From: Lachnospiraceae bacterium
GTDB taxonomy: Bacteria > Bacillota > Clostridia > Lachnospirales > Lachnospiraceae
Length of the DNA stretch: 61,617 nt
Assembly: GCA_011959805.1 (NCBI GenBank)
Contig: BLMC01000011.1
Location: 1-61,617, forward strand
Direction: 5' to 3'
Part shown: positions 3,058 to 19,733 of the stretch, in pieces
How the letters are laid out: each line of letters starts with the position of its first letter
Numbering within the stretch: position 1 is the stretch's first letter
Notes under the pieces: model-generated
Database searches by the model: none
Seen by the model: only the letters and a program-made list of their open reading frames with translations
Told to the model about the DNA's origin: nothing
Translations under genes and position numbers: made by a program

Positions 3058-3120
3058 CACTAACCTCCATGATTCCGCTCTGCGGAATCTCAAATCAAGG
3101 TGGTGAAATCTCTGATTTCA
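3058..3120 (-). repeat. Hairpin-SD repeat, copy D
   Basis: Minus-strand copy just after tagD, opposite in orientation to copies A and B. Read on the minus strand it has an AT hairpin (GAAATC/GATTTC, 3105-3119), the linker CACCACCTTGATTTGAG, a GC hairpin pairing GATTCCGC (3071-3078) with GCGGAATC (3082-3089), GGAGG (3064-3068), TTA and GTG (3060-3058). It would open only an 8-codon frame that runs antisense towards tagD. The stem bases differ from the other copies but pair perfectly. Confidence 0.6.
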
Positions 3121-3163
3121 TACTAATTATAATTATCAAGGCCTAAATTTTCTTAACTACTAT

Positions 3164-3190
3164 CACTTTCTCATATCAAAAGTGTATAAT
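3164..3190 (+). promoter_or_regulatory. Probable promoter and operator of the serine recombinase
   Basis: A perfect -10 box TATAAT (3185-3190) lies 44 bp before the recombinase ATG. No good -35 is seen at 16-18 bp. Instead an inverted repeat CACTTT (3164-3169) / AAAGTG (3179-3184) directly abuts the -10, a position where the recombinase or another regulator could bind and self-regulate. The binding role is inference. Confidence 0.4.
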
Positions 3191-3231
3191 TTCTCCAAAC
3201 ACAAATTTACATATATATTTTGGAGGAATAA

Positions 3232-3819
<588 letters not shown>

Positions 3820-3855
3820 TCTTGATATAGAATACATTATTTTTCTATATCAAGA
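3820..3855. repeat. Perfect 13-bp palindrome after the recombinase gene
   Basis: TCTTGATATAGAA (3820-3832) is followed after 10 bases by its exact reverse complement (3843-3855), starting at the base after the recombinase stop codon. There is no proper U tract, so it is a poor terminator. It could be a recombinase binding site or an RNA-stabilising hairpin. Confidence 0.4.
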
Positions 3856-3880
3856 TATTTACTGTTACAATGAAAATTAA

Positions 3881-3917
3881 GGATTAAGTATCTAATCAGT
3901 TAGAGCTTAATCCTTTT
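3881..3917. terminator. Probable bidirectional terminator
   Basis: GGATTAAG (3881-3888) pairs with CTTAATCC (3906-3913), with an inner CTAA/TTAG stem, and is followed by TTTT on the plus strand and TTAATTTT on the minus strand. It separates the plus-strand recombinase from the converging minus-strand acyltransferase operon. The remaining ~115 bp to 4032 shows nothing recognisable. Confidence 0.6.
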
Positions 3918-4032
3918 ATCATAAACTACAAAATCTCCTTAATATCCTTATCTATGCATAATTTTATAGAGTTACAACTAAAGAGTATTAAATAGCATTA
4001 TCATTATATTACTGCAAAGTGAAGCTCATATC

Positions 4033-5103
4033 TTATTGATAAAATTTTTCTAGCCTCTTACATACAAATTGATACGCTTTACATTTAAAAATAAACTTAT
4101 CCATTACCAAAACCCTTATATTATCCACACAAACGCTCACCACAAATATTATTACAACTACGAATAATGAATAAAATACTCCATTTCCAGATTCTACAGC
4201 AGAATTTACCTGAAATATTCCATTCCACATATAATTATAAAACGCTGGTGTTTGATGAATTATATATACTGCAAATGTTGAACGAGATACCAAATTTACA
4301 AAACGATTTGATCTCATATTCCAGTTCTTAAATGCGAAGAAAAGAGCCAGAGAACATATAAAACCCAAAAGCGCCTCATAATGTGCATAATAGTGAATAA
4401 AAATTCTATACAAGCCCTCATGGTTTAAATAATCTGCTAACACCCTTATTGCGCATAAAAACAAATACCCTACTATAAACCACAAAATACTATATTTTTC
4501 AAACCATTCATACTTAAAAAATTGATATCGTTTATAAAGTCCTATAAATAGATACAAAAAGCAAAACCAAACCAGTTCGCTGAATGCTGGTGTAACATGT
4601 TCTATTGGAAATAGCGTGGCACATCCTATGATCAATATACCAAATAATTTTATTATTTGTTTCGTTTTGTGCTGATTTTTTTCCACAAGCATTTCATTCA
4701 GCCATGGTGTTAACAGTAGTAAACAAATATATTCCGATCCAAACCATACTGGTCTTCCAAAAATCGGGAAACATGCTTGTATCAATGTAGTTATAGTGGC
4801 ATCTTTACACCCAATCACAATACAAAAAACTGTTATACTAACAGAATACAGAAATATTTGCATCCATAAATTAATGACTCTTTCAGCCCTAAACTTACTA
4901 TCTACCAAAAACCATGCGCCTATCATAACAAATGTATTACACACAAACCGTCCAGCAGAGCCTAACAATATACTATAATAATAATCTATTCTATCACCAA
5001 TCAAGTATTCACCCATCTTTGTTTGTCTGGTAATATGGAATCCCATTATTAGTATCATACACACAATACGCAACAATTCAAAATTACTCTGCCGTTTTTC
5101 CAA
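4033..5103 (-). CDS. Acyltransferase family 3 membrane protein (O-acyl/acetyl transferase)
   Basis: A 356-aa integral membrane protein of the acyltransferase-3 family. The hallmark N-terminus NFELLRIVCMILI with His after it (MGFHITRQ, about residues 7-26) starts the first helix; the family transfers an acetyl or similar group from a cytoplasmic donor to sugars outside. About ten hydrophobic segments follow. The start is TTG at 5103 with AAAGGG eight bases upstream. It is the last gene of the 10261-to-4033 acylation operon, 18 bp after the preceding gene, so it probably adds O-acetyl groups to the polymer. Confidence 0.8.
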   Translation of the reverse strand: MEKRQSNFELLRIVCMILIMGFHITRQTKMGEYLIGDRIDYYYSILLGSAGRFVCNTFVMIGAWFLVDSKFRAERVINLWMQIFLYSVSITVFCIVIGCKDATITTLIQACFPIFGRPVWFGSEYICLLLLTPWLNEMLVEKNQHKTKQIIKLFGILIIGCATLFPIEHVTPAFSELVWFCFLYLFIGLYKRYQFFKYEWFEKYSILWFIVGYLFLCAIRVLADYLNHEGLYRIFIHYYAHYEALLGFICSLALFFAFKNWNMRSNRFVNLVSRSTFAVYIIHQTPAFYNYMWNGIFQVNSAVESGNGVFYSLFVVVIIFVVSVCVDNIRVLVMDKFIFKCKAYQFVCKRLEKFYQ

Positions 5104-5120
5104 ATCTGCAACCCTTTCAC

Positions 5121-7241
5121 TTACTCATTAAATAGGTTTTCATTTTCATAATAAATGGTCTCAACCGAAGCACCATTCGTTATAATTTCATATTCAATAT
5201 CTTGTTTTCTTGAAATATCAATCAAATAGCGCCTCTTTATTCTTCCATTTGTCAACTGTGTTACTTCACCATCAACCTTCCATTTTATTTTCATATCCTT
5301 CAAATCTTTACCAGAAAATGTAACAATATATTTGCCTTCATTAAGTGGCAGCTTTGTCTGCTCTTCGCCTACAACAACTGCTCCGGCAGTTCTTTTTATC
5401 TCTACTTTATATAATATTGTAGGAATATCTTCTCTACGTCCTACAGACAGCCCTATTTGCGTATTTTGAAGACAAGTAATCTCAACTGTGGCAATATCCT
5501 CTCCCTTATTATCAATCTTTATATTTGTAATCTCATCATTTTTCAATACCTCCAACAACAAATTATCTTTTGCTGCTGTTGTGATCTCTATTCTACTAGA
5601 GCCAACTGGAAGATCTAAATAATAAGTAATCGTATCTGTAAGTTCATACCCCATCCCAGCAGTATCCATAACAACTGTCGTATCAAAACGCACATCATAA
5701 TCATAAGTATAAATCGTATCCCCGTCGGAATAAGCTTCCATATAATTGTCTCTAATTTTATTAATATTTTCGGGAGATATTGTCATCTCATTATTACCAT
5801 CTGATACTATAAAATTGAAGTAATTACCCCCATCTCTATAAAAACCATCACTTTTACCACACACAAACTTATCATCCTCAATAAGTGCTTTACTAATTAC
5901 ATACTCTGCATTTGTAGCTGCTGTTACAGGAACAGATTTCCAATGACTTCCCAAACCATACTTATATGTTTGACCATGTTCTTTTAGAAAATCAATCTCA
6001 AACATAAAACTACCATTTGTAATATCTTCTGATGGAATAAACACAGGATTAATATAACCAATACTCAGTAAAATAAATACCACCCCGAGAAATAAATTAT
6101 TGGATATGTTATGAAAAATCATAGTTCTACTATAACGTTCATCCAGCCACCGCGCCAAAATTACTACAAGTAAAAACCAACAGACACTTGCATATCTGTT
6201 CATCGGTGCACCTTTTATATTATAGTATTTTATCATACCATTACATATGTTGAATATCAATACTACTGTTGTACATATCACAGACAATGAATCCAATAAT
6301 ATAGTATTTTTTAATCCTTTTTTTAATATCTCTATCCACCTACTAATTAAGGCAACTAAAGCAAATCCTGCAATTATAATTCTTATTATCCAATAAAACG
6401 ATTTAAATTGTATCATGCCTCCTTCAATTGGTATATTCCATTGAATCAACAAAGAACTAAAAAGCGAAGGAATTCCTTTACTAAAAAGATTTTCAACATC
6501 TATCCAATTATAATATTCAGCACCACCATACCCCCCTAACGCCTCCATAATGCCTAATCCTTGTCCAAAAAATTTAGCTGTAAGCATATCAAAAATTTTT
6601 AATATTCCTGCAACTAATACAACTCCAAAAAAAGCCATATAAAGATACTTGCGTTTCTCATAATCTTGGAATAAGAGAATTACAAAATATACACTTAATG
6701 GAATAAACAAAAAAAGTATCAATAACAATCTGTCATCTATAAACAGTAGTGTATATATGGATACAAAACCAATCAAAAACAGTATCCACTTTTTTCCGCT
6801 ATCCTTATAAAACTGTAACGCCCATATCGCAAACAAAGTAACAAATGTCACAACCATATGATACCTATTCGTCGTTTGATAAGGTAAAAGAATAAATATA
6901 GCAAATGCAAGCAGCCACTTGGAATCTTTATTATACATGATCAGTAAAAGTGTAAAAAAAACTGCTATTCCATACCAAAAGGAAATATATGCAAGAGAAG
7001 AAAACGTACCGCTCCCTCCTATATTCAGTAAATACGCGATAGCAGAACAAAAAAACCATGGATTTAAAAATGTTTTTAATCCCAATTCTTTATTGCCTAA
7101 TTCAAAATAGTTATACATATATGCATATGTTCCAGCGTCATCTGTATTGCATCTGGATTGCACAAATTGCAAATATCCGAGAAATACCGACAAGATAACC
7201 ATGACAGCCATCATTATACACTTTTTCTTTTTCATCCTCAT
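5121..7241 (-). CDS. Large polytopic membrane protein, GT-C-like
   Basis: A 706-aa protein with many hydrophobic helices in residues 1-430 and a soluble ~270-aa C-terminal part. After the first helix comes QSRCNTDDAGTYAYMYNYF, with the paired acidic residues in the first outer loop typical of GT-C transferases. The C-terminal part is beta-rich and probably extracytoplasmic. It may use a lipid-linked sugar to modify polymer outside the cell, but no named family was recognised. The frame is open from 7271; GAGGGAAAGG favours the start at 7241. It sits between the SGNH protein and the acyltransferase. Confidence 0.6.
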   Translation of the reverse strand: MRMKKKKCIMMAVMVILSVFLGYLQFVQSRCNTDDAGTYAYMYNYFELGNKELGLKTFLNPWFFCSAIAYLLNIGGSGTFSSLAYISFWYGIAVFFTLLLIMYNKDSKWLLAFAIFILLPYQTTNRYHMVVTFVTLFAIWALQFYKDSGKKWILFLIGFVSIYTLLFIDDRLLLILFLFIPLSVYFVILLFQDYEKRKYLYMAFFGVVLVAGILKIFDMLTAKFFGQGLGIMEALGGYGGAEYYNWIDVENLFSKGIPSLFSSLLIQWNIPIEGGMIQFKSFYWIIRIIIAGFALVALISRWIEILKKGLKNTILLDSLSVICTTVVLIFNICNGMIKYYNIKGAPMNRYASVCWFLLVVILARWLDERYSRTMIFHNISNNLFLGVVFILLSIGYINPVFIPSEDITNGSFMFEIDFLKEHGQTYKYGLGSHWKSVPVTAATNAEYVISKALIEDDKFVCGKSDGFYRDGGNYFNFIVSDGNNEMTISPENINKIRDNYMEAYSDGDTIYTYDYDVRFDTTVVMDTAGMGYELTDTITYYLDLPVGSSRIEITTAAKDNLLLEVLKNDEITNIKIDNKGEDIATVEITCLQNTQIGLSVGRREDIPTILYKVEIKRTAGAVVVGEEQTKLPLNEGKYIVTFSGKDLKDMKIKWKVDGEVTQLTNGRIKRRYLIDISRKQDIEYEIITNGASVETIYYENENLFNE

Positions 7242-7336
7242 AACCTTTCCCTCAACTGCATTTCTTTGCATAAATACTGCCAGTTATTAAAATATACTAT
7301 TTACGTAACAGTTCCACCTTCAACTTTCTGTTATAG

Positions 7337-7432
7337 GCATCAAGTCATGCAAAACCACTTAGTAATGGCTTGATGCTTCCCAACTCTAGCGCTGTTTCAA
7401 GGACTTTGCAACAATTGTAAAGTCCTAAACAG
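7337..7432 (-). other. Two consecutive stem-loops in an intergenic gap
   Basis: Within the 170-bp gap between the SGNH gene and the large membrane protein lie two stems: CTGTTT-AGGACTTT paired with AAAGTCCT-AAACAG (7392-7432), and GCATCAAG (7337-7344) with CTTGATGC (7369-7376). Neither has a U tract, so they look more like RNA-processing or stability elements inside an operon than terminators. No promoter with good boxes is seen after them. Confidence 0.4.
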
Positions 7433-7440
7433 AACCATTC

Positions 7441-8742
7441 CTATTGATATTCTACCTCCACAATATGCACAGCATCTGGAGCGTTTTTCATACGATATTC
7501 GACAGTACAGATTCCATTTCCATCCTCAATAATAAACTTTTTATTTTCGCAAAAGTCCTGTACAAGATATGATTCCTTGTTCAAAGATTTATCTGGAATA
7601 ATTGTAATTCTGTATTCCATACCAGAATCTCTGTTTGAAACAACATTCATAAATATTTCGGCATCTTCCTTCCAATAATGAATTCCATATACTTCTGGTT
7701 CCTCATCCTTCAGTTTCTGTACATAGGAATCATAAAAATATTTCTGATTCTGTTCTGCGTTGCCCGATACTACTTTATAAAAAAAGTCTGTAAACATAGC
7801 TGCTCCGTTTGAATTTAAATGATCAACATCTTTGAAATATTTCAAATTCTGTATTGGAAAATACTCTTCCTTCGCAAGATTGAAATCATAAAAATCCAAG
7901 TCATATTCACTTGCAATATTCTTCATTTGTTTTACATAATTATCATAATTTCCTACACTGGCAGGCTGTAGATTATACATTGGTGATATGAATAAAGTAA
8001 CTGGAATACCTTTCTTCTGGCAATATTCAATCGCTTTACGCAGATACAGCTCACTGCTTTGTGCCATGGGATTTTCGCCTAAATTCTGCTTTTTCCTAAA
8101 CCTTCTGTCTTCTGCTCTGCATACATATTCTGTATATCGAAAGCCTTTATCCAGATATTCTTCATGCTCATCTGAATATTTATAACCACCTGTCATTTTT
8201 GTTTCAATTGTAGACTTGATAAATTCATAGTCGCCAAGATGTTCGCGATATCTGCTAAACGGTATCAGAATATTTATATAATTTTCGATATCGTTAGTAA
8301 TTGACAGCATATAAGAGAGTTTATTGATAGACCATTTCATATAATCTGTGTTCTGCCAATTAAACCAAGGCTCTTGTGTAACCCAATCACTATCGCCAGT
8401 ATTTCTCAAATAATATAGTTCTATATAAACATGAGACAATTTGTTGTACTTGTCCGCTTCCCGCAAAAGATAATAGCTTCCATTCATCAACTGCCCAGGA
8501 GTTGACATATTAAAATTATATTGTCCATTTAATTTATCTAATAAAAAAGGATCAATATCATAATATACATGTGAAGAACCTAAATACAAATTATCAATTT
8601 TCCCTTCAGCTTTATAAAAATTATGCCACAAAATTCGCTCCCACTGCGGATCCATCACATAAACATAATTCAGACCATTCAAAATGACACAGAAAATTAA
8701 AATCCTTACCACGAACCCTGTAATTCTCTGAAACCATTTCAT
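7441..8742 (-). CDS. SGNH/AlgJ-DltD-like acylation partner of MBOAT
   Basis: A 433-aa protein with one N-terminal membrane anchor (about residues 8-30) and an extracytoplasmic SGNH-hydrolase-like domain. It has GSSH at residues 55-58 for the nucleophile serine and D-V-D-H-L-N at 305-310 for the catalytic Asp/His dyad. Proteins of this kind (AlgJ/AlgX, DltD, PatB) act with an MBOAT protein to move an acyl group onto a polysaccharide, and the MBOAT gene is directly upstream (19-bp gap). A C-terminal ~90-aa beta-rich extension is unusual for DltD. Substrate unknown. Confidence 0.75.
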   Translation of the reverse strand: MKWFQRITGFVVRILIFCVILNGLNYVYVMDPQWERILWHNFYKAEGKIDNLYLGSSHVYYDIDPFLLDKLNGQYNFNMSTPGQLMNGSYYLLREADKYNKLSHVYIELYYLRNTGDSDWVTQEPWFNWQNTDYMKWSINKLSYMLSITNDIENYINILIPFSRYREHLGDYEFIKSTIETKMTGGYKYSDEHEEYLDKGFRYTEYVCRAEDRRFRKKQNLGENPMAQSSELYLRKAIEYCQKKGIPVTLFISPMYNLQPASVGNYDNYVKQMKNIASEYDLDFYDFNLAKEEYFPIQNLKYFKDVDHLNSNGAAMFTDFFYKVVSGNAEQNQKYFYDSYVQKLKDEEPEVYGIHYWKEDAEIFMNVVSNRDSGMEYRITIIPDKSLNKESYLVQDFCENKKFIIEDGNGICTVEYRMKNAPDAVHIVEVEYQ

Positions 8743-8761
8743 TTTACTGCCCCCCTAAGTT

Positions 8762-10261
8762 TTAAAACTGAAAATAAATAAATTGTGTAGTATCATAAAG
8801 TGTACCATAACACCCATACAGTAAAATGACAAAAATCATCATCATTATTACAACTGTTCGAAACCACCAATCCTGTTTTAATAACAGATCCACGACATCA
8901 TGTCCCTTATATTTCAGATAATCCACACCAAACAACACTGCGATCGCTAACAACAGCATATTCATAGGTCCCTGTGTCACGCCAAGTTCATAGATAGAAC
9001 CATCAAAAAAAATCGTCCAATTCATGCAACTACACATATCCCGCAGAATCAAAAGTGCATCCTTTAATCCGCTCGCACGGAAAAATATCCATGCAAATGT
9101 CACAAATCCAAAGGTACACAACATCTGACACAGCTTTCTACTAAAAGATGCTACTTTTTGCATATGTGGATTCCCAGAACGTTTTTTAATCTTTTCTGCT
9201 AAATCCTCCATAACCTGTCCCATGCCATTTAACATCCCCCAAGACAAAAAACTAAGCGATGCTCCATGCCAAAGCCCACTTACTGCAAACACAACTATAC
9301 GGTTGTACTCTTTCCTCACTATTCCCTTTCTACTGCCACCAAGCGGAATATAAAGGTAATCACGAAACCACTCTGACAGCGAGATGTGCCATCTCCGCCA
9401 GAATTCTCGAATGTTCTTTGCATAATATGGTGCATCGAAATTGTTCATCAATCGTATGCCCATAAGCAGTGCGGAACCTCTTGCAATCGTAGAGTATCCA
9501 TAAAAATCACAATAAATCTGAATGGAAAATAAAATCGTCGCTATTAAAATAAAGAATCCCGGATAGCCCGCACTATCCTCATACACGGTATTCACGACAA
9601 TCGCTGCCCTATCCGCAATCACCACTTTCAGAAACAATCCATACAAAATCAGGATAACGCCCTTTTTCATATTCTTATATTGAAAGTCATATGCTTCATG
9701 TAATTGCACTAACAGATTTTTAGAACGCTCTATTGGTCCTGCCACAAGTTGGGGAAAAAATGAAACAAACAGCGCATAACGGATAAAATTTTTTTCTGCA
9801 TAAATATCTCCTCGGTACACATCAACTAGATACCCTAGCGACTGTAGTATATAAAAAGAAATCCCAACAGGCAGCAGTATCGACATTTCCCATGTGATTT
9901 CACCCACATGGAATGCCGAAAATATACGATTCAATGTAAAGACTCCCCATGAAAAATACTTATAGAAGAATAGAATCCCCAGATTTAGCACAATGCATAC
10001 AACAAGACACAGCTTTTTATTGTTGTGTCTTTTGTTTCCGTTCTCCTTATCCCCAACCTTAAAGTATTCGATAAACACTCCTCCTATATACGTAACTGTT
10101 GTACAAAATATCAATAAAAGAATGTATGTTTTATTCCATTGCATATAAAAATAATAACTTGCACACAACAGCCACACATAACGAACCTTTTTGGGCAGAA
10201 TATAATAAATTAAAACCACAATCAGTAAAAAAATCAAATACTGCACTGTATTAAATAGCAT
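8762..10261 (-). CDS. MBOAT-family O-acyltransferase (AlgI/DltB-like)
   Basis: A 499-aa multi-spanning MBOAT protein. It shows SIQIYCDFYGYSTIA, EFWRRWHISLSEWFRDYLY and PLGGSRKG, then SGLWHGAS with the conserved histidine, all in the usual order; the length is normal for AlgI-type proteins (about 470-520 aa). It moves an acyl group across the membrane, to be placed on polymer by the SGNH protein encoded next. It is first gene of its operon, with a near-consensus promoter at 10323-10351. A second MBOAT/SGNH pair is at 52438-55008. Confidence 0.9.
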   Translation of the reverse strand: MLFNTVQYLIFLLIVVLIYYILPKKVRYVWLLCASYYFYMQWNKTYILLLIFCTTVTYIGGVFIEYFKVGDKENGNKRHNNKKLCLVVCIVLNLGILFFYKYFSWGVFTLNRIFSAFHVGEITWEMSILLPVGISFYILQSLGYLVDVYRGDIYAEKNFIRYALFVSFFPQLVAGPIERSKNLLVQLHEAYDFQYKNMKKGVILILYGLFLKVVIADRAAIVVNTVYEDSAGYPGFFILIATILFSIQIYCDFYGYSTIARGSALLMGIRLMNNFDAPYYAKNIREFWRRWHISLSEWFRDYLYIPLGGSRKGIVRKEYNRIVVFAVSGLWHGASLSFLSWGMLNGMGQVMEDLAEKIKKRSGNPHMQKVASFSRKLCQMLCTFGFVTFAWIFFRASGLKDALLILRDMCSCMNWTIFFDGSIYELGVTQGPMNMLLLAIAVLFGVDYLKYKGHDVVDLLLKQDWWFRTVVIMMMIFVILLYGCYGTLYDTTQFIYFQF

Positions 10262-10322
10262 CTTTGAAACTTTCCTTCCACAAAATCTATCTGGTCAATT
10301 TATACAACCAAAAACACATTTA

Positions 10323-10351
10323 AGTATATATTTTGTCATAAAAAATGTCAA
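10323..10351 (-). promoter_or_regulatory. Sigma-A-type promoter of the acylation operon
   Basis: On the minus strand TTGACA (10351-10346), a 17-bp spacer and TATACT (10328-10323): a perfect -35, a five-of-six -10 and ideal spacing. Predicted transcription start is near 10316, about 55 bases before the MBOAT start. Confidence 0.75.
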
Positions 10352-10925
10352 TAGCTTCTTATCCGCTCTCAATAAACACTTGAATTAACAGTAATCCTTA
10401 TGAACTTTCTCGCAATCATCTAGTCTGTTTTTTCTGAATATTTATTGTATCAATAATAACACAGGCAGTTAGGCTTACCTATGTTCCATAAATTAATTCT
10501 CATAACGCCCTTTAAAGGATGTTTCACAAAGCAGTCATAACAAATTATGACCACAATTAATAAATCTATGAATATTTTATATTTCTTGTAGCTTTGTTAA
10601 TTAAAAAAACATATATTTCAAAAATATTACTACTATAAAAATAAAAACGTATTGATACTTCTAATGTTCTATATAAGGAAATAATAAGTTTCAAAACAAC
10701 GACAATACAAGAATACTAGACAATAGAGTTCTAACAATACCTCTTGACATCATATAATTGTCAAAACGATATTTTTATGCGCTACACTGACCATAAAACC
10801 ACTCCATCAAAAGCAATATCTGAAGTTCTGTCTTATATTCTAACAGGTTCATATATTTCTTAATTCAAATTTTTCGACAAGCACCAACTCGTTTGCTATT
10901 GTAAATGTAATGAATAAAATCACTA
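10352..10925. other. Long AT-rich intergenic region without a gene
   Basis: About 570 bp with no plausible coding frame on either strand. It contains a palindrome TTGACA (10744-10749) / TGTCAA (10759-10764) around ATATAAT, giving perfect -35-like hexamers on both strands but no good -10 at 16-18 bp. No clear terminator is seen after the licD gene that ends at 10926. Its size is unusual in this tightly packed locus and may mark an old deletion. Confidence 0.5.
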
Positions 10926-11732
10926 TCATTCAATGAAATGTTTTATGTATTCCCCGGTTCCTTTATCAGGAACCATATAATTACCATACTGTAAAGTAAG
11001 ATGACAATCATATCCTCTAGGCACTGGAAATTGTCTATCACGAAATTGCATAAAGCTAACCTTATCATACCACGCACTTTCATAAGGTCTGCTAATACCT
11101 TTCAAAGGCGAATTTACACTCATACAATACTTTTTGGGAGATTTATTCTGTTTATTAATCAGTTTATTTCTCCAACTTATAATCTTCTTCATATCTATTT
11201 TTGCACCTATACTGCCGAGAACTTTTGTCTGACATTTTTGAATCCATGTATACTTTTCACTTTTAATTCGATAGCGGTGTCCCATCCCCAATCCATATAA
11301 AATCTTATGCATTAATGCAACCCATTTTACCTGCCATATTGTATTTGCACTATAGACAAATTGGAAAATATCTATAAAGGCATAATTCTGTTTATTATCA
11401 TAAAATAAATCTTCATCATCTGATTTGTGAATCGGATAACGAAGATCTTGTACACGTGTTACAAAATCAAAAAAATTAGGTAATAAATCATTTGGTGTTG
11501 TTATTCTTAAATGTTCTGGAAGCTGCTCTCTTAATTTTGCGCACAATAGTTCATAATCTTTCTGCCATACGATAATATCAATATCATCATCCCACGGAAT
11601 AAAATCATGGTTCCGAACAGCTCCTAACATACTTCCACCATGAAGCATATATATTATATGATTTCTCCTGCATATATCATCAACAACACACAAAATCTCA
11701 AACAACACATCTTGGTATTCTCGTAATGTCAT
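10926..11732 (-). CDS. LicD-family phosphotransferase (second copy)
   Basis: A 268-aa LicD protein with GSMLGAVRNHDF and PWDDDIDI at about residues 32-55, the metal-binding acidic cluster of the family. It probably transfers a phosphorylated alcohol or amine from a CDP carrier to the polymer. The start overlaps the stop of the cytidylyltransferase by four bases (ATGA), so the pair is translationally coupled. It is diverged from the LicD at 1720-2610 outside the core motif, so it may use another donor or acceptor. In the orientation seen, both genes lie downstream of the outward promoter of the inversion switch at 12234-13345. Confidence 0.85.
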   Translation of the reverse strand: MTLREYQDVLFEILCVVDDICRRNHIIYMLHGGSMLGAVRNHDFIPWDDDIDIIVWQKDYELLCAKLREQLPEHLRITTPNDLLPNFFDFVTRVQDLRYPIHKSDDEDLFYDNKQNYAFIDIFQFVYSANTIWQVKWVALMHKILYGLGMGHRYRIKSEKYTWIQKCQTKVLGSIGAKIDMKKIISWRNKLINKQNKSPKKYCMSVNSPLKGISRPYESAWYDKVSFMQFRDRQFPVPRGYDCHLTLQYGNYMVPDKGTGEYIKHFIE

Positions 11733-12157
11733 AACTCAATACTCCTATCATTTTGTAAATTTAGTGTATTTGAAATTCGCGTAGACGAAATTCCCTTTGT
11801 ATATGGAAAGTAGATTATTTTTATTCTTTCCCTAGCAAACTTTTCCTCATAATCTTTCCATTTATTTGTAGCATACCAATCATCACCTACAAATAAAACG
11901 GAGGCTCCCAACTTCTTACACGCCAAAAGCTTATCCATGTCATACTGTGGTACTGCAGCATCTACATATTTAATACTTCTTATAATTTCAATTCTATCCT
12001 CAAATGGTATTAATGCGCACTTCCCTTTATAAGATACTAAATCATCTACTGTCACTCCAACCACTAATTTATCACAAAATCCTTTTGCATTTTTTAATAG
12101 ATTAAGATGTCCAATATGAAACAAGTCAAAAACACCTGTTGTATAACCAATAATCAT
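11729..12157 (-). CDS. Cytidylyltransferase family protein (TagD/phospho-alcohol type)
   Basis: A 142-aa nucleotidyltransferase with TGVFDLFHIGH at residues 7-17 (HxGH at 14-17) and YTKGISSTRIS near the end. It is clearly related to TagD, but the middle region (VTVDDLVSYKGK) is closer to the broad cytidylyltransferase family that also includes phosphocholine/phosphoethanolamine enzymes. Its CDP product would feed the coupled LicD. The start at 12157 lies 77 bp inside the left inverted repeat of the switch; GGGG about ten bases upstream is a weak ribosome site. No promoter is seen between the repeat and the gene, so expression probably depends on the switch promoter. Confidence 0.8.
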   Translation of the reverse strand: MIIGYTTGVFDLFHIGHLNLLKNAKGFCDKLVVGVTVDDLVSYKGKCALIPFEDRIEIIRSIKYVDAAVPQYDMDKLLACKKLGASVLFVGDDWYATNKWKDYEEKFARERIKIIYFPYTKGISSTRISNTLNLQNDRSIEL

Positions 12158-12233
12158 TATTTTTCCCCACTTTCCTATTTGCTAGTTATTCTTTACAATT
12201 GTATAATTAAAGCGTTTTTTATAAATACAAAAA

Positions 12234-12263
12234 ATCCCTAAGTACCTAACTAAAGGATTTATA
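12234..12263 (+). repeat. Left inverted repeat of the invertible segment
   Basis: Thirty bases starting ATCCCTAAGTACC and ending AAAGGATTTATA, the exact reverse complement of 13316-13345. The next bases on both the inner and outer sides do not pair, so the repeat is exactly 30 bp. It contains an imperfect palindrome of the form ATCCYTWAGT, 5 bp, ACTWARGGAT, as expected for two recombinase-binding half-sites around an asymmetric crossover. Confidence 0.9.
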
Positions 12264-12271
12264 ATAGATTT

Positions 12272-12301
12272 ATAATAAACTATCTTTACATGTATTGTCA
12301 A
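12272..12301 (-). promoter_or_regulatory. Outward promoter inside the invertible segment
   Basis: On the minus strand TTGACA (12301-12296), an 18-bp spacer, TATTAT (12277-12272): a perfect -35 and a five-of-six -10. Predicted start is near 12265, at the inner edge of the left repeat, so transcription runs through the repeat into 12157-10926. If the segment inverts, the same promoter would read rightwards to 13397. It lies after the recombinase stop codon, so it does not drive the recombinase. Confidence 0.7.
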
Positions 12302-12335
12302 GAATTTACATCAAAACCATATTTTGTGTAGATAT

Positions 12336-13289
12336 CTATTTATTTATTCTATCTATTAATTCAACACATTTTCTTTTTTGTTCAATACTGGGATGAACAT
12401 ATAAATTCATTGTGATATTTACATTAGCATGTCCAAGTATTTCACTTACAGTTTTATAGTCAGCACCGCATTCGATACATCTAGTAGCAAATGTATGTCT
12501 TAGACAATGAAAGTTTAATTTACGAATATCTAAAGAGTCCATAAATTGTGAATAAAAGTTTCTGTATGTTCGTGGTTCAATGTATTTTTCTGTATTTGTT
12601 AAAACATATGTGTTAGGGTTGTTTGCATGTAATTTTATTAATGTCTGTGTGAGTTTGGATGAAATAGGCACTTCACGTATTGAGTTGCATGTTTTCGGAG
12701 AAGTAATACTTATTTTTGTATGTTTTTCTTCAATTTCTTCTTTAAAATATAGTCTTTGCAATGTTTTAGAAATTATAATGGTTCTATTTTCCAAATCAAT
12801 GTCGGACCATCTTAATGCGCATAACTCTCCAATTCTAATTCCCGTATATAAACTAATTAAAATGCCATTTGATTTATTTGTTAAATTGGATAATATGGCG
12901 TTTACTATAATTTGTTGTTCTCGAATCGTATATGTTTGTGCAGCAACAGTTCTATTTTTACATACTGGGATTACTAAATTAATTTTTTGATTTGGTATGT
13001 AATTTTTTTGCATTCCATAGTTTAAACACAATTTGAAAATTAAAGTTATATCTCGAGCAGTCTTGTCAGAAAGTGGCATATTACCTTGCAAGCGATTATT
13101 TTCAAACCACTGTGACATTTTTTGATTCAAAATATCTGATGTTATCATAGAACAATTCATATTACCAAATAATGGAATAATATGATTTTTCAACTGTATA
13201 GCATAATTACAATAAGTTGATTCTTTAACCAAATTTTTTTTATAATGGAGCCATTCCTCCGCAAGCTCTTTAAATGTCAAATAATTCAT
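12336..13289 (-). CDS. Tyrosine site-specific recombinase (invertase)
   Basis: A 317-aa phage-integrase-family recombinase. An N-terminal SAM-like core-binding domain (about residues 1-110) is followed by the catalytic domain with Arg152 (TGIRIGEL), a likely Lys199 (SPKT), His261 and Arg264 (HCLRH), His287 (GHANV) and nucleophile Tyr297 (YVHPS). All active-site residues are present, so the enzyme looks functional. It has no arm-binding domain, which fits a simple invertase. The ribosome site is AAAGGTGG, nine bases from the ATG. The gene fills the segment between the perfect inverted repeats, so its own orientation relative to the flanks would change on inversion. Its promoter is not clear. 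Confidence 0.9.
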   Translation of the reverse strand: MNYLTFKELAEEWLHYKKNLVKESTYCNYAIQLKNHIIPLFGNMNCSMITSDILNQKMSQWFENNRLQGNMPLSDKTARDITLIFKLCLNYGMQKNYIPNQKINLVIPVCKNRTVAAQTYTIREQQIIVNAILSNLTNKSNGILISLYTGIRIGELCALRWSDIDLENRTIIISKTLQRLYFKEEIEEKHTKISITSPKTCNSIREVPISSKLTQTLIKLHANNPNTYVLTNTEKYIEPRTYRNFYSQFMDSLDIRKLNFHCLRHTFATRCIECGADYKTVSEILGHANVNITMNLYVHPSIEQKRKCVELIDRINK

Positions 13290-13315
13290 TTTTATAGTCC
13301 ACCTTTCTTCTTTGC

Positions 13316-13345
13316 TATAAATCCTTTAGTTAGGTACTTAGGGAT
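13316..13345 (-). repeat. Right inverted repeat of the invertible segment
   Basis: Exact 30-bp reverse complement of 12234-12263, beginning TATAAATCC and ending TACTTAGGGAT. It lies 26 bp upstream of the recombinase ATG and 51 bp before the first pyruvyl-transferase gene. Just outside it is a lone -10-like TATACT (13352-13357) without a matching -35. Confidence 0.9.
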
Positions 13346-13396
13346 ACAATATATACTAATCGATTTCCGACAATAAATCAAAAGGAGAAATAATGC

Positions 13397-14440
13397 ATGA
13401 AATGGGGAAGAATAACATTTGCGACTTCTTTATGTTATAAAAATTATTGTAATATTGGGGATGTTATGCAAACATTTGCAGTCGACCTCATATACAAAGA
13501 AATGCAAATTGCATCCGAACAGATTGTTGATATACCTGCTGACGAAATAAATACCTATAATGGAGAACTTGTACTTCTTCCAATGGCTGGTAATTTCCAA
13601 TACAGTAGAAAACATCCCGTATTTCCGACTTCAAAAAATATTATTCCTATATTTCTAAGCATATATTGTACCTCATGGCAATACCTTAAACATACTGACT
13701 TTTGGAACAAATACGGGCCAATTGGTTGCCGGGATGAAAATACTATGATTGCAATGCGTCAAAAGGGATATGACGCATACCTGCTAGGTTGTATCACTAC
13801 TCTTTTCCCAAAACGCAATTTTAATCCACATATTCCACACGTCTTTTTAATAGATGTTCAGCCAAAGGTAATTGAATATATTCCTAAAAATCTTCTGGAA
13901 TCATCTGAATACATTACACACGACATACTAATTGACAGAAGTTTACCAAAAGACAAAATAATGGAAGACATTCAAAATAAAACAAAGGAAATCTATGCAC
14001 GCTATTATAATGAAGCTACATTAATCGTAACTTCTCGACTTCATGCCGCTGCTCCTTGTATTGCCATGGGAATTCCAACAATTGTCGTTAAAAATGGATT
14101 TGATGAACGTTTTGGATGGTTGGATAAATTTGTACCATTGTACACACCAGATGAGTATAGCAAAATCAACTGGAATCCTCAACCTGTAGATCTTACAGAA
14201 CACAAAGCAAGGTTAATGCGCGCTGTTATAAACCTTTTAAGTAGAAAAACAAATTATAGTGACTTAGAAAGTACCCATTCCTTTTATTTGGACAGAACAA
14301 AAAAAAACCTTCATACACCAATATTAACTTCCTGCTTCATATGGCTTGCACAATATTTTCCAGCACTTGCCGAGTTTATTCAGAAAAAAATTCTAAAAGC
14401 TTTTTCTACTACTGCGCTTTCTGATAAAAAGGAGATATAA
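13397..14440 (+). CDS. Polysaccharide pyruvyl transferase family protein 1
   Basis: A 347-aa member of the WcaK/CsaB pyruvyl-transferase family, which puts a pyruvate ketal from phosphoenolpyruvate onto a sugar. The diagnostic C-terminal stretch is SRLHAAAPCIAMGIPTIV at about residues 212-229, followed by ERFGWLDKF. The middle has GCRDENT and YLLGC segments typical of the GT-B-like fold. A good AGGAG lies 11 bases before the ATG at 13397. The start codon of a four-gene-bounded unit sits 51 bp beyond the right repeat of the inversion switch, and no complete promoter is present in this orientation, so the gene is predicted to be off. A paralogue follows after 3 bp. Confidence 0.85.
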   Translation: MKWGRITFATSLCYKNYCNIGDVMQTFAVDLIYKEMQIASEQIVDIPADEINTYNGELVLLPMAGNFQYSRKHPVFPTSKNIIPIFLSIYCTSWQYLKHTDFWNKYGPIGCRDENTMIAMRQKGYDAYLLGCITTLFPKRNFNPHIPHVFLIDVQPKVIEYIPKNLLESSEYITHDILIDRSLPKDKIMEDIQNKTKEIYARYYNEATLIVTSRLHAAAPCIAMGIPTIVVKNGFDERFGWLDKFVPLYTPDEYSKINWNPQPVDLTEHKARLMRAVINLLSRKTNYSDLESTHSFYLDRTKKNLHTPILTSCFIWLAQYFPALAEFIQKKILKAFSTTALSDKKEI

Positions 14441-14443
14441 AAC

Positions 14444-15484
14444 ATGAAATGGGGAAGAATAACATTTGCTAACCGTGCTATTGAGCGTAATTATTTTAAT
14501 GCTGGTGATACGATACAAATTTTTGCTGTAGATATTATTTATAAAGAAATGCGACTTAATCAAAATGATATTATTAATATTCCAATTGATGAAATTCGCA
14601 CTTATCATGGCGAAAAAGTAATCCTTCCAATTGCTGGCTATTTTCAATATGAAAGTAGAAATCCTGTATTTCCAACCTCAAATGACATTATACCAATATT
14701 TTTAAGCTTGCATTGTACATCCAAACAATATTTAAAATATAAAAGTTTTTGGAAAAAATGTGAGCCTATAGGGTGTAGAGATGAAAGTACAATGCTGGCT
14801 ATGCGCAAAAATGGTTGCGACGCATACCTTCTAGGATGTATTACCTCGTTGTTTCCAAAGCGTAATTTTGTCCCAAACACTCCTCATGTTTTTTTAGTTG
14901 ACGTCCATCCTAAAGCAGTACAGTATGTTCCTCAAAATATTATGCAATCAGCAGAATATATGACACAAGATATATGTATTGACAAAAATATGCCCAAACA
15001 AAAAATCGCAGATGTCATTCAGGAACAAACGAAAAATATTTATTCCAGATACTTTAACGAAGCTACATTAATTATCACTTCTCGACTACATGTAGCTGTT
15101 CCATGCATGGCTATGGGAATACCTGTCATTGTTGTAAAAGATGGATTTGACAAACGTTTTGGATGGTTGGAAAAGTTTCTACCACTATACACACCAGATG
15201 AATATAATACAATAAATTGGAATCCTCAACCTGTTGATATAGAAGAACATAAAAAATATTTACTTGAAAATGCAATCCTACTGCTTGAAAGAAAAACATG
15301 TATCAATAATTTGGAATATGTGCATCATTTCTTAATGGACAGAAACAGAAAAAAACTTCACACATCTTTTCTGGTTTCTGGATACCAATGGCTTGCTCAA
15401 TATTCTCCACAGTTAGCTTCATTTGTCCGATATAAATTATTAAAGCCTTTTAGTATCTCTGCCAGAACAGATTCCCAAAAGTAA
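14444..15484 (+). CDS. Polysaccharide pyruvyl transferase family protein 2
   Basis: A 346-aa tandem paralogue of the previous gene, alike over the full length: MKWGRITFA start, GCRDEST, YLLGC, SRLHVAVPCMAMGIPVIV and KRFGWLEKF. It should also add a pyruvate ketal or a related enolpyruvyl-derived group, perhaps to another residue. AAGGAGATATAAAAC precedes the ATG. The first 26 bases of the two genes are identical, so homologous recombination could fuse or delete them. It ends at a strong bidirectional terminator. With its partner it forms the right-hand output of the inversion switch. Confidence 0.85.
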   Translation: MKWGRITFANRAIERNYFNAGDTIQIFAVDIIYKEMRLNQNDIINIPIDEIRTYHGEKVILPIAGYFQYESRNPVFPTSNDIIPIFLSLHCTSKQYLKYKSFWKKCEPIGCRDESTMLAMRKNGCDAYLLGCITSLFPKRNFVPNTPHVFLVDVHPKAVQYVPQNIMQSAEYMTQDICIDKNMPKQKIADVIQEQTKNIYSRYFNEATLIITSRLHVAVPCMAMGIPVIVVKDGFDKRFGWLEKFLPLYTPDEYNTINWNPQPVDIEEHKKYLLENAILLLERKTCINNLEYVHHFLMDRNRKKLHTSFLVSGYQWLAQYSPQLASFVRYKLLKPFSISARTDSQK

Positions 15485-15490
15485 CTGCTC

Positions 15491-15536
15491 AAAAAGCAAG
15501 GCATGATAAGCCTAAAGCCTATCATGTCTTGCTTTT
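15491..15536. terminator. Strong bidirectional terminator between converging operons
   Basis: AAAAAGCAAGGCATGATA (15491-15508) pairs with TATCATGTCTTGCTTTT (15520-15536) through a long stem with an inner AGCC/GGCT. It has A and T tracts on both sides, so it works in both directions. It stops the pyruvyl-transferase transcript and the long minus-strand operon. The last codons of the flippase gene (stop at 15512) lie inside the stem. Confidence 0.85.
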
Positions 15537-16771
15537 CTTAGTATTATAATATATGCTATACCAAATACTAAAGCCAATAATATCATTGTAATCATATATC
15601 CCCACACAGCTCCTTCCAGTTGAAACCACTGTACCATTTTATAAATAATAAAACGTCCAGCCAGGGAAACTCCCAAATATATCAGCATCGCTTTTTTCTG
15701 TTTATTCATAACAGTAAATATATTAGCAAGAAAACCACCAACTGCTAAAAAGCCACTCGCTAAAAGGGTTTCTAACAAATGTATTTTATATGCATTAAGA
15801 TCCTTATGATACAAAATAGATAATACTGAAGTCCCCAGAAAAAATCCCCCGAATAAACATATCAGCACAATTGTGATAAGAACAAACATCTGCCTCACAA
15901 TTCTATAGGAAAACTGCTGAATTTTATGTTCTTTCCACTCCATTGAATACAATACATACTGTGGACGATAAATAAAACTATTCAGTAACGTAACCACAAA
16001 CACCGGCATGGATATATACCCATAAACAGCCTGCATTTCATCGCCAAGATATGTATTTATCGCATACTTTGGAATATTTGTTATATAGATATATAAATAT
16101 GACGCGATGCATAAAAACACACTTTCCTTAAATAATTTATCCATTCCTTTTCTTGAGTCACCTACATTATTGTCTATATATCTAAAATAAGTATATATAA
16201 TAAATATAGTTCCAGAAATAAAACAAACAACAAATCCCCAGATAGCAGACTTGACAATATCCTTTGATACAAAGTCAACAACTATAAATACCAAAAGTGT
16301 TAGTACCCATCGTATCGAAAATATTTTGCTACCAATATCCAATCTTCCCCTTGCCTGATATGAACCAGCAAATACATCCTCAAAAGCCTCAACCGCGTAC
16401 CACATACAAACCCAAAAAACACATGATGACTTTTGATTAATATCATTGTAAATTCCCAAATTGTACAGAAAATAAATAATGGTAGACAACACCATAATTC
16501 CAACTGTTATTATCCTAAAATTAAAAAATACTTTAAATGTATATTCTTCATTCTCATGTACAACCTGATAATTCCTTATCCCAAACTTTCCAACTGTCAT
16601 CAATAAATTCGCAACAGAAAAAGCAAATGTTAAAATCCCAGCTTCTTTTAATCCGTTTATTCTTGAGACTACAGCAACAATAATTACAGCTTCTGCAGCA
16701 TTTATAATTCCTGCTATAATATTCCATATCACATTTTTTCGATAAATTGATTCTGTTTTGCTTCTATTCAT
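15512..16771 (-). CDS. wzx: Polysaccharide flippase (Wzx-type, MOP superfamily)
   Basis: A 419-aa membrane protein with about 12 hydrophobic helices, beginning NVIWNIIAGIINAAEAVIIV and LTFAFSVANLLMTVGKFG, the usual start of Wzx/PST oligosaccharide flippases. It should move undecaprenyl-linked repeat units across the membrane. The frame is open to 16894, but an ATGA overlap with the rfbG stop codon fixes the start at 16771 and means translational coupling. It is the last gene of the long minus-strand operon. Two ABC-type flippases are also encoded (28528 and 50679), so the locus may export more than one lipid-linked product. Confidence 0.8.
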   Translation of the reverse strand: MNRSKTESIYRKNVIWNIIAGIINAAEAVIIVAVVSRINGLKEAGILTFAFSVANLLMTVGKFGIRNYQVVHENEEYTFKVFFNFRIITVGIMVLSTIIYFLYNLGIYNDINQKSSCVFWVCMWYAVEAFEDVFAGSYQARGRLDIGSKIFSIRWVLTLLVFIVVDFVSKDIVKSAIWGFVVCFISGTIFIIYTYFRYIDNNVGDSRKGMDKLFKESVFLCIASYLYIYITNIPKYAINTYLGDEMQAVYGYISMPVFVVTLLNSFIYRPQYVLYSMEWKEHKIQQFSYRIVRQMFVLITIVLICLFGGFFLGTSVLSILYHKDLNAYKIHLLETLLASGFLAVGGFLANIFTVMNKQKKAMLIYLGVSLAGRFIIYKMVQWFQLEGAVWGYMITMILLALVFGIAYIIILRKARHDRL

Positions 16772-17832
16772 ATTTCGAAAAAATCCTCTATCTGTTTCTC
16801 CATACAATCGGAAATATCTGTACCTGTCATGTATATTGTAGACCATTCTATGATCTTCTCTATTGTTGTTTCCACATTCCATCTTGGTTTCCAACCGAAT
16901 ACACTTTTTAATTTAGAGCAATCCAATTTCAGAAAATTCGCCTCATGGGGACCACCATCATATTTATTAATCCATTTAATATTTCCATCAAATGCTTTAT
17001 TCCATTTATCACAGAACAGAGTTACAAGTTTACCTGTAGTCCAACAATCCGATTCATCTGGTCCCACATTATAGCATCCAGCATACACCCTATCCATATA
17101 TTGTTTCTGTGCAATCATTAAATATACAGCAATCGGTTCTAATACATGCTCATATGGCCTGATTGAAAAAGGATTTCTCACAATAATATCCTCTCTTTTC
17201 TCCGCTGCACGAATACAATCTGGAATAATCCTGTCTGATGCAAAATCACCTCCGCCAATTACATTACCGGCTCTTGCTGTAGAAATTGCTACATTCCTAT
17301 CCTCAAAAAAAGACTTGATATAACTGCTTGTTATAAGTTCTGAGCATGATTTGGAATTAGAGTACGGATCATATCCATTTAATTCTTCATTCTCACGATA
17401 CCCCCATGACCATTCTTTATTCAGATAAACCTTATCTGTTGTTACATTAATAACAGATCGAACTGAAGGCGTCAATCGAATACACTCAAGCACATTCACT
17501 GTTCCCATAACATTAGTCTCATAAGTATACACAGGATTCTGATAAGATTCACGCACAATAGGCTGTGCTGCCATATGGATAACAATTTCTGGTTGAGTTC
17601 GGTCAAACACCTTTTTTAAATGTCTCAGATCACGAACATCACCTTCAATAGAATTTATCTGACCAGACAAATGACATATTTCAAATAAGGAAGGTTCTGT
17701 TGGTGGTTGTAAGGCATATCCCGTTATATATGCCCCTGCTTTAAGCAATGCTTTGCACATCCAAGCTCCTTTAAATCCTGTGTGTCCTGTAATTAATATC
17801 TTTTTATTATTATAAAATGAAAAATCAAACAT
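16768..17832 (-). CDS. rfbG: CDP-glucose 4,6-dehydratase
   Basis: A 354-aa SDR enzyme close to the usual RfbG length. It has the NAD-binding GHTGFKGAW near residue 16, MAAQPIV, a threonine/aspartate pair in NVTTDKVY, and Y-S-N-S-K as the catalytic YxxxK. GNVIGGGDFASDRIIPD and RPYEHVLEP are strongly typical of RfbG. It converts CDP-glucose to CDP-4-keto-6-deoxyglucose. The start at 17832 is chosen for GGAGAG seven bases upstream; the frame is open to 17859. It works with rfbF (25217) and rfbH (23840) in the same operon. Confidence 0.9.
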   Translation of the reverse strand: MFDFSFYNNKKILITGHTGFKGAWMCKALLKAGAYITGYALQPPTEPSLFEICHLSGQINSIEGDVRDLRHLKKVFDRTQPEIVIHMAAQPIVRESYQNPVYTYETNVMGTVNVLECIRLTPSVRSVINVTTDKVYLNKEWSWGYRENEELNGYDPYSNSKSCSELITSSYIKSFFEDRNVAISTARAGNVIGGGDFASDRIIPDCIRAAEKREDIIVRNPFSIRPYEHVLEPIAVYLMIAQKQYMDRVYAGCYNVGPDESDCWTTGKLVTLFCDKWNKAFDGNIKWINKYDGGPHEANFLKLDCSKLKSVFGWKPRWNVETTIEKIIEWSTIYMTGTDISDCMEKQIEDFFEI

Positions 17833-18787
17833 TTTTTTTCTCTCCACAGCTATCTTCAAAATTCAGTCGTTCCTCCTCAATTACCAAGGGTCTATTCATA
17901 ACCCTTTGATTAATAGACAATATATACTCTCCCATAAATCCAAGAAAAAATAGCTGAATAGAACCCAGAAAAAATATGCCAATTAACATTGGCGCCATAC
18001 CTGCAACAAACCGATCCCAATATAATAATTTCATTACCAAATATGCGATTCCCATCACTGCACTTAGAATTCCAATACCGATTCCCATAAAAGTTGCTAA
18101 CCTTAATCCAATCTTTGTATAAGATGTAAAGCTAAGCATTGCTGCATCATACAGAGTGTAAAAACTATTATGTGTCTTTCCTGCGCGTCTCTGTGGCTGT
18201 TCATAAGGTATTTCCTTTCTCCGATACCCCAGTTCTGCAACAATTCCCCGCAAAAATGGTGTGGGATCTTTTAAATTTCTTAACACCTCTACAAACTCCC
18301 TATCATATAGCCCTGAACCTGTAAAGTGTTCAATCTGTTCCACATCAGAAAATTTTTTGATTATTTTGTAATAAGTGCTTCGCAGTTTATACATTATAGG
18401 ATTTTCTTTGCTAGTTTTCTTTATTCCTATTACAATTTTATATCCATTTTCCCATTCTCGTATATACTGTGGTATCAGCTCTATGGGATCTTGAAAATCA
18501 CAAACCATACTGATTGTACAATCTCCTGTCGTCTGAAGCATCCCATAATATGGAGAATTAAACTGTCCAAAATTTTTTGCATTAAATATTGCCTTGATAC
18601 GATGATTTTTTACACAAATCTCCCTCAATAGTGGTCTGGTATTATCTGTTGAATCATTATCAATAAACAAAAGCTCGTACTCGTACTGTGCTAATTCCGC
18701 TTCAAACAAATTTACAATTGCTTCACTCATTGGAACCACATTTTCTTGTTCATTATAACATGGTATTAAAATACTAATTTTTTTCAT
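17825..18787 (-). CDS. GT2 glycosyltransferase with C-terminal membrane hairpin (GtrB/DPM-like)
   Basis: A 320-aa protein: a GT-A domain with ILIPCYNEQENV, LFIDNDSTDNT and CDFQDP (the DxD-type metal site), then two membrane helices at about residues 230-290. This is the GtrB/ArnC/dolichol-phosphate-mannose-synthase design, which makes an undecaprenyl-phosphate-linked sugar for use outside the cell. The product could feed one of the GT-C proteins of the locus, though it could instead transfer directly. It overlaps rfbG by 8 bp and the reductase gene upstream by 14 bp. Confidence 0.8.
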   Translation of the reverse strand: MKKISILIPCYNEQENVVPMSEAIVNLFEAELAQYEYELLFIDNDSTDNTRPLLREICVKNHRIKAIFNAKNFGQFNSPYYGMLQTTGDCTISMVCDFQDPIELIPQYIREWENGYKIVIGIKKTSKENPIMYKLRSTYYKIIKKFSDVEQIEHFTGSGLYDREFVEVLRNLKDPTPFLRGIVAELGYRRKEIPYEQPQRRAGKTHNSFYTLYDAAMLSFTSYTKIGLRLATFMGIGIGILSAVMGIAYLVMKLLYWDRFVAGMAPMLIGIFFLGSIQLFFLGFMGEYILSINQRVMNRPLVIEEERLNFEDSCGEKKNV

Positions 18788-19733
18788 ACTGTGCTTTCTC
18801 CCAATCTACTGTCTCTTGTATACCCATCTCAAAAGTATAATCAGAAACATATCCAGTATCTTCAATAAGCTCTTGTATATCAGCACATAGGTACATAACT
18901 TGTTTTGGTGTGTATTCAATATCACCATACCCTACTACAGCCTGTGAATCAGTAACAGATCTGATTATCTCAATATAAGTTTTAAGCGGTTTTGCAATAC
19001 CACTTCCTAAACAATATATTTTTCCGTTTATTCCATAACACCCTATCAGATACATCATTTTTGCCGCATCTTTTGCATACAAATAATCCCACATTTGTTC
19101 ACCTTTTGTACAAGACGCCCGTTCTCCATTAAGCATTTTTCTAATAATAGACATAACCATTGTGCTACTTCCATCATAAGGACCATATACACTCAAAATT
19201 CGTGTCCATATATGTCTCATACCTCTTTGATAGCATCGGATTCTTGTCATCTGCCCTGCACATAATTTTGCAATACCATATCCATTTTCAGGAAACACTG
19301 GTACATTAGCATGTAACTTCCCCTCATACCTCCCATATTCTGCCTGCGAACCTGCACCAATAAACAATTCACATTGAAGTTCTGCTGCCGCGTCAACTGC
19401 ATCCAGAGCATATTTTACATTCCTGTTTTGGAGATACATATCATCTCTACTATATCCAAATGTACCCTCCCATGCAAAGTGAAAAAAAACATCTATGGAT
19501 TGTTTCTCATCCCAATGTTTCTGCTGAATTACTTTTCTGACTCTTTGTGGTAATTCTTTCATCTCCCCAAGCGCACATTCCACTATTGCAATATAATTCG
19601 ATTCCTTAATCCTGTGTTTCCTGCTTGAATTACCTCTAACCACTGCCAGTACCTGTATATTCCTGTTATTTAGATACTCAATTAGCGCCATTCCAATGGC
19701 ACCTGTCGGACCTGTTATAATTATACGATTCAT
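18774..19733 (-). CDS. NAD(P)-dependent SDR sugar reductase/epimerase
   Basis: A 319-aa extended short-chain dehydrogenase with GPTGAIGMAL near residue 8, GAGSQAEYG in the place of the catalytic Ser, and Y-G-I-A-K as the YxxxK motif. It sits directly downstream of the ThDP enzyme (4-bp overlap) in the CDP-3,6-dideoxyhexose cassette. By comparison with the yersiniose pathway, it is a candidate for reducing the carbonyl left after branch addition (YerF-like role), or it may act as an abequose-synthase-like 4-ketoreductase. The family is certain; the exact reaction is not. Confidence 0.75.
   Translation of the reverse strand: MNRIIITGPTGAIGMALIEYLNNRNIQVLAVVRGNSSRKHRIKESNYIAIVECALGEMKELPQRVRKVIQQKHWDEKQSIDVFFHFAWEGTFGYSRDDMYLQNRNVKYALDAVDAAAELQCELFIGAGSQAEYGRYEGKLHANVPVFPENGYGIAKLCAGQMTRIRCYQRGMRHIWTRILSVYGPYDGSSTMVMSIIRKMLNGERASCTKGEQMWDYLYAKDAAKMMYLIGCYGINGKIYCLGSGIAKPLKTYIEIIRSVTDSQAVVGYGDIEYTPKQVMYLCADIQELIEDTGYVSDYTFEMGIQETVDWEKAQYEKN

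Follow-up and report, generated by a model that had tools for sequence, protein, structure and literature searches.

Known DNA inversion systems

Recombinases that invert DNA are encoded near their switch and occasionally within it, with Hin named as an example (passages of PMC5903667), and the hixL and hixR sites and the promoter of the Hin segment have been described (passages of PMC9368917). The tyrosine recombinase PsrA is likewise encoded within the hsdS locus that it inverts (passages of PMC7096588 and PMC12324116). Invertible promoters before surface-structure genes are described in Clostridia and Bacteroides, together with RecV, Mpi and a group 139, and tyrosine recombinases are linked to the Clostridia invertons; the printed example is about 250 bp long, with a recombinase nearby that is generally not under the inverton's promoter (passages of PMC11892184). 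Moreover, long inversions have probably been missed owing to read length (passages of PMC13174815).

Here we discuss a 1.1-kb segment, positions 12234-13345 of the window (the whole stretch of 61,617 nucleotides that was analysed), which we consider very probably to be a promoter cassette able to invert, with the gene for its recombinase on board. Like the Salmonella H segment with Hin, it would combine an invertase gene and an outward promoter in an inverting segment of about 1 kb. However, Hin is a serine recombinase, whereas the enzyme in the window belongs to the tyrosine family (PF00589). The Hin system also features a Fis-bound enhancer, and Hin switches one operon directly and the other through a repressor, while two opposing units flank the present segment directly. 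With PsrA and the pneumococcal cod/spnIII hsdS inverton, the locus shares a tyrosine recombinase encoded within the inverting DNA; that inverton, however, uses three repeat pairs to recombine hsdS coding sequences and moves no promoter between operons. Going by the title of PMC6620402, recombination at the cod/spnIII hsdS locus is said to be independent of the known recombinases. Unlike the promoter invertons of Clostridia and Bacteroides, the window has its enzyme inside the segment. The nearest solved sequences to this enzyme are Int protein chains such as PDB 6emy (2.7e-16), which we take to be the Int of Tn1549. Int of the Tn1549/Tn916 type moves a conjugative transposon, whereas neither element boundaries nor a second site were found here in the source assembly. 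Because of Hin and PsrA, placing a recombinase within its segment has precedents; a single tyrosine recombinase that shares its segment with a promoter, between two opposing operons, did not turn up in searches of an open-licence collection, which leaves most subscription papers outside.

Organization of the locus

The segment and its flanking units comprise the following features.

10926..11732, minus strand: LicD-family phosphotransferase (PF04991), second gene of the left unit
11729..12157, minus strand: first gene of the left unit, cytidylyltransferase-like protein (PF01467; the top NCBIfam model, glycerol-3-phosphate cytidylyltransferase, scores under its cutoff)
12179..12207, plus strand: inward promoter-like site in the left flank, TTGCTA-17-TATAAT (10/12)
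12234..12263, plus strand: left recombination site, 30-bp repeat, ATCCCTAAG / centre TACCTAA / CTAAAGGAT, then TTATA (the 7-nt centre is our reading)
12272..12301, minus strand: outward promoter-like site within the segment, behind the recombinase gene, TTGACA-18-TATTAT (11/12)
12336..13289, minus strand: tyrosine recombinase, 317 aa, with SAM-like core-binding and catalytic domains (Phage_integrase PF00589, 1e-26; Phage_int_SAM_3 PF14659, 4e-13)
13316..13345, minus strand: right recombination site, perfect inverted copy of the left site
13397..14440, plus strand: polysaccharide pyruvyl transferase (PF04230), first gene of the right unit
14444..15484, plus strand: second polysaccharide pyruvyl transferase of the right unit (PF04230), about 62% identical to the first

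An earlier note on this DNA had described two exact 30-bp inverted repeats that do not extend by a single base, enclosing a recombinase with all its catalytic residues, and had placed the segment between two opposing polysaccharide-modification units. The sequence agrees on each point. The arms are complementary at 30 of 30 positions with 1,052 nt between them, and extension by one base fails at both arms. The sole gene between them is the tyrosine recombinase, which thus lies inside the segment proposed to flip. The two flanking units diverge from the segment, the left genes being on the minus strand and the right genes on the plus strand, and their Pfam families agree with a role in polysaccharide modification.

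Downstream of licD, window positions 10262-10925 give only a partial match (10612-10854) and hold no ORF of at least 90 aa on that strand. At the matching place (3291-4640), the related locus L012 encodes a 449-aa membrane protein, probably a flippase, of which the window counterpart is apparently a decayed gene. Further to the left, a resolvase-type serine recombinase (3235-3819, plus strand) adjoins a second LicD/cytidylyltransferase pair (1597-3037); it is also present in L012 at 2718-3302, and no enclosing inverted repeat was reported around the window copy.

The recombinase

Residues R152, K199, H261, R264, H287, and Y297, which we take from family knowledge to be the catalytic residues of tyrosine recombinases, are identical in all 52 homologous rows. 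Compared with its copy in Lachnospiraceae bacterium A4, the gene has a dN of 0.096 and a dS of 1.06 (dN/dS about 0.09), and by this measure it is under purifying selection. No curated NCBIfam model reached its cutoff for this protein (11 families listed), and assignment as a FimB/FimE-type tyrosine DNA invertase was rejected, with NF007370 and NF007371 scoring 28.1 and 25.1 bits against cutoffs of 222 and 221. The gene starts only 26 bp inside the repeat, and its promoter is therefore probably located in the flank.

The recombination sites

The 30-bp pair is the longest perfect inverted repeat of the window, where the six other reported pairs are 70-90% complementary. Allowing up to 3 mismatches, the repeat sequence occurs at these two places of the window only, and 100 shuffles did not contain it; a 25-base core, at the same tolerance, is found only at these two sites in the source assembly (431 contigs, 86.5% complete). 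On this search, further target sites in trans of the Mpi-like kind were rejected. Viral contigs gave 0 matches to an independent copy of the site.

Reading the sites with a 7-nt centre, both window copies are ATCCCTAAG-TACCTAA-CTAAAGGAT. The A4 sites, which have one mismatch between them, are ATCCTTAA(T/G)-TACCCAG-CTAAAGGAT, and those of genome G424 are ATCCTCAA(G/T)-TGTCCAA-CTAAAGGAT. The centre is thus common to both sites of one genome, and 2 or 3 of its 7 bases differ from the window in the other genomes. This pattern fits an overlap region that has to match within a pair and is otherwise free to drift. When the half-sites were split by script, the best centre measured 5, 7, 8 or 9 nt in different rows, and 7 nt is thus a provisional length for the overlap.

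Orthologous loci in opposite orientation

A search of genome contigs for relatives gave three loci, two of them close (recombinases 82 and 83% identical). In L012, a locus of Lachnospiraceae bacterium A4, the DNA on either side runs in the same order and direction as in the window (10922-12260 corresponds to 4629-5970 and 13319-19230 to 7031-12951, all on the plus strand), whereas the segment itself aligns in reverse (12234-13345 to 7057-5944, minus strand; 81.6% identical), and the reversed part breaks at the repeats. When the window segment is reversed in silico, positions 10922-15480 align with L012 in one unbroken alignment of 4,565 bp at 81.4% identity. Since the window and A4 represent different species, this comparison alone could reflect one old inversion. 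The segment is also reversed relative to the window in L013 (UBA7205, a metagenome assembly). There, a deletion (6021-6027) joins the cytidylyltransferase gene to the recombinase gene and removes the left site, 18 residues at the N terminus of the recombinase, and the start of the cytidylyltransferase gene. Because the left repeat and both gene ends are lost, this switch looks either naturally locked or misassembled.

In A4 and in UBA7205, the segment has the same neighbours and the same breakpoints as in the window. Moreover, the recombinase dS is close to those of flanking genes (1.18 and 1.39), which suggests that segment and flanks are of equal age. A target duplication, named beforehand as a sign of ordinary insertion, was not seen, the 12 nt outside each repeat being unlike. 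An empty site was not found either; however, at the cutoffs used, orthologs of the LicD and pyruvyl transferase genes occur in only 3 of 38 genus genomes, all of them cassette-bearing, which makes the search for an empty site uninformative. The source assembly holds a single copy of the cassette, in one orientation only, and no third site.

A paralogous cassette kind

The source genome also has a second cassette kind (L047). Its recombinases are 44-45% identical to that of the window, and enclosing repeats are present in all 4 genus loci (L002, L022, L023, and L025). Between L049 and L050, the flanks are 99.4 and 99.7% identical while the segment, 98.6% identical, is inverted; the recombinase of L050, one of these two flipped copies, is split by a frameshift. 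The second kind is also found in L048, in surroundings other than those of L047 and L049. No sigma-70-type promoter site above 9/12 was found in the paralogous cassette.

The earlier claim that the segment inverts is borne out by the A4 ortholog, in opposite orientation with its breakpoints at the repeats, and by the paralogous system, seen in both orientations. Inversion of the segment is well supported by these sequence comparisons.

A predicted outward promoter

The earlier note missed what is likely the output of the flip, the outward promoter-like site in the segment. This site (12301-12272) is the top-scoring one in 11700-13500 and points left. L012 and L046 each have an 11/12 site (TTGACA-18-TATnAT type) at the same place, and in the alignment no other conserved block from the recombinase to the repeat is as long, the repeat excepted. 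The recombinases of the loci that keep it are 70-82% identical to that of the window. Promoter-like sites are no commoner than in shuffles (11 versus 13.1 in the window region, 7 versus 8.8 in L012, and 3 versus 10.3 in L046), and hence only the conserved place argues for the outward site. In the window orientation it faces the cytidylyltransferase-LicD unit, and in L012 and L013 its reading direction is towards the pyruvyl transferase genes. The flip is thus probably an either/or switch of polysaccharide decoration. In L046, the flanks are other than those of the window and the right one holds transposase debris, and the switch there would therefore be one-sided.

A weaker leftward promoter-like site in the left flank (12225-12198) may keep the left unit partly on. 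The inward site of the same flank (12179-12207) would read the recombinase in the flipped state; it is kept in L012 as TTGCCT-17-TATAAT (5887-5915, 10/12), where it reads the recombinase, and is absent in L046. In the pyruvyl transferase flank, the scan gave a single inward candidate, a 9/12 site within the coding region (13472-13443). This difference between the flank promoters suggests that return from the pyruvyl state may be faster. The window and L012 regions showed no terminator-like site on the way from the recombinase to either unit, and read-through is therefore possible.

Proposed mechanism and alternative explanations

The following model is our preferred reading. The tyrosine recombinase would pair the two inverted sites and exchange strands close to the middle of each. 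The 1.1-kb segment would thereby be inverted, as the comparison between lineages shows to have happened. A promoter behind the recombinase gene, whose place and conservation are observed, would be active and point out of the segment. In the window state it would read left into the cytidylyltransferase-LicD unit, and in the inverted state right into the two polysaccharide pyruvyl transferases. Judging by the gene families, the cell would then alternate between decoration of a surface polysaccharide of the phosphate-ester type and of the pyruvate-ketal type. The recombinase itself would be read by a flank promoter that differs between the two states, and the two switching directions may consequently differ in rate.

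A different origin would be a small mobile element, that is, a tyrosine-recombinase gene with terminal inverted repeats, the opposite orientations being independent insertions. A single gene enclosed by repeats would look like this, and homologues do occur in phage-labelled contigs and plasmids; the different surroundings of the 45%-identical system in L048 and the other flanks of L046 also agree with movement. Yet flanks and breakpoints are common to the three lineages, the recombinase is as diverged as its neighbours, no target was duplicated, and the source assembly has one copy only. On the shared flanks, the flank-like dS and the missing duplication, the integrase of a mobile element was ruled out as the main reading, and we regard such an element as highly improbable. 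Alternatively, the segment might have inverted between lineages and now be fixed in each, with the recombinase serving another purpose or being controlled in trans. The single orientation of the source assembly, the locked appearance of L013, and the mismatch between the A4 repeats would be expected from fixation, whereas the perfect identity of the window repeats over 30 bp, the purifying selection on the recombinase at a dS of about 1, and the paralogous system, which inverted recently between genomes whose flanks are more than 99% identical, argue otherwise; we think fixation quite unlikely.

The alternative that deserves more weight concerns the output rather than the inversion. The segment might flip with an output other than the promoter at 12272-12301, such as transcription from a flank promoter through the recombinase, or recombinase expression only. 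Read-through would be possible for the reason given above, and the paralogous cassette shows no evident sigma-70-type site. On the other side stands the outward site kept at the same place in three loci, and we judge another output to be rather unlikely. The preferred reading thus remains a promoter cassette that inverts with its own recombinase.

Distribution of repeat-enclosed homologues

Thus far, we have focused on the window and its closest relatives. In the genomes sampled, close homologues of the recombinase are rare: 5 of 397 family genomes have one at 1e-70 and 13 of 392 order genomes at 1e-60 (own genome included in both), while 21 of 38 genus genomes have a homologue at 1e-45. An enclosing repeat pair was present in 25 of 52 homologous loci, of which 48 could be assessed, L018, L059, L060, and L062 being at contig ends. 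A pair was counted with at least 20 identical positions, a score reached by 0 of 60 simulated sequences. By group, pairs enclose 3 of 4 loci of the window kind, 4 of 4 of the second kind, and 18 of the remaining 44 (4 of the 44 not assessable). The fragments L008, L010, and L011 as well as L014 were left out of this table, and L019 and L020 were dropped because their identities equal those of L012 and L013, of which they are apparently duplicate genomes. L068 has a pair with 16 of 16 matches; only for the tree was it labelled manually as "repeat present".

In a quick tree of 50 rows, which excludes the partial L025 and L062, the enclosing-repeat label needs 7 changes; shuffled labels need 17.0 on average, and none of 500 shuffles needed so few. 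The window kind and the second kind form one branch (support 91). The outer ends of the pairs lie 58-130 bp beyond the recombinase match in enclosed loci, a similar distance in most; for L021 the distance is that of its site pair, the top-scoring pair there being a different one (62/63). Elsewhere, no inverted repeat with at least 18 matches was found in 21 loci of 2.6-3.9 kb lacking an enclosing pair, which were chosen for its earlier absence and are no independent control, and none in three stretches of 8-8.5 kb around the nearest relatives outside the genus. Among 8 loci taken from the 16 phage or plasmid hits listed, 4 have pairs (21 of 24, 24, 25, and 36 matches), 3 lack them, and in 1 long gene copies face each other in inverted orientation. 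Opposite orientations were seen for the window kind and the second kind only; for the other kinds, inversion is predicted from their repeats.

Several single loci differ in arrangement. Most of the more distant recombinases (L003, L024, L026-L029, L032, L039-L041, L043, L063, L065-L067, and L069-L071) have enclosing perfect repeats that are nearly palindromic, and a stretch of about 230-560 bp precedes the gene. In L021, a 63-bp piece of licD recurs in inverted form (62/63) across the cassette (1043-1105 and 3620-3682), next to transposase-like debris, which looks as though another licD had formerly been present on that side. In L085, a phage-labelled gut contig, the recombinase homologue lies between long inverted gene copies (3068-3467 and 5113-5512; 356/400), and this locus looks like a shuffling coding-sequence switch. 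Contig C23 of genome G397 has two opposed recombinase copies of equal score less than 1 kb apart, 38% identical to that of the window (97778-98641, minus strand, and 99556-100419, plus strand). The homologue on Ruminococcus albus pRUMAL02 (L078) has imperfect enclosing repeats (21/24) and is situated between groups of other recombinase genes.

Biological implications

If the proposed model is correct, one promoter chooses between opposing units, and cells would carry either LicD-type or pyruvate-type modification of the same polysaccharide. Surface structure may thus vary between cells of a strain, as the earlier note proposed, and the alternation would be a simple means to vary what phages and immune systems see. 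The 1.1-kb segment would then be an either/or switch carrying all its DNA parts. More tentatively, and with the balance somewhat against it, these loci could represent a class of self-contained switches that is widespread among Lachnospirales and the mobile elements of this order, in which a lone tyrosine recombinase lies between its own two sites. Each flip would give the enzyme gene a new upstream flank, such that the state sets the rate of leaving it, and inverton surveys based on short reads would record too few of these 1.1-1.5 kb segments. That repeat-enclosed recombinases recur in homologous loci suggests a common form of phase variation in the order, whose genes would so far have been counted as plain "site-specific integrase" genes.
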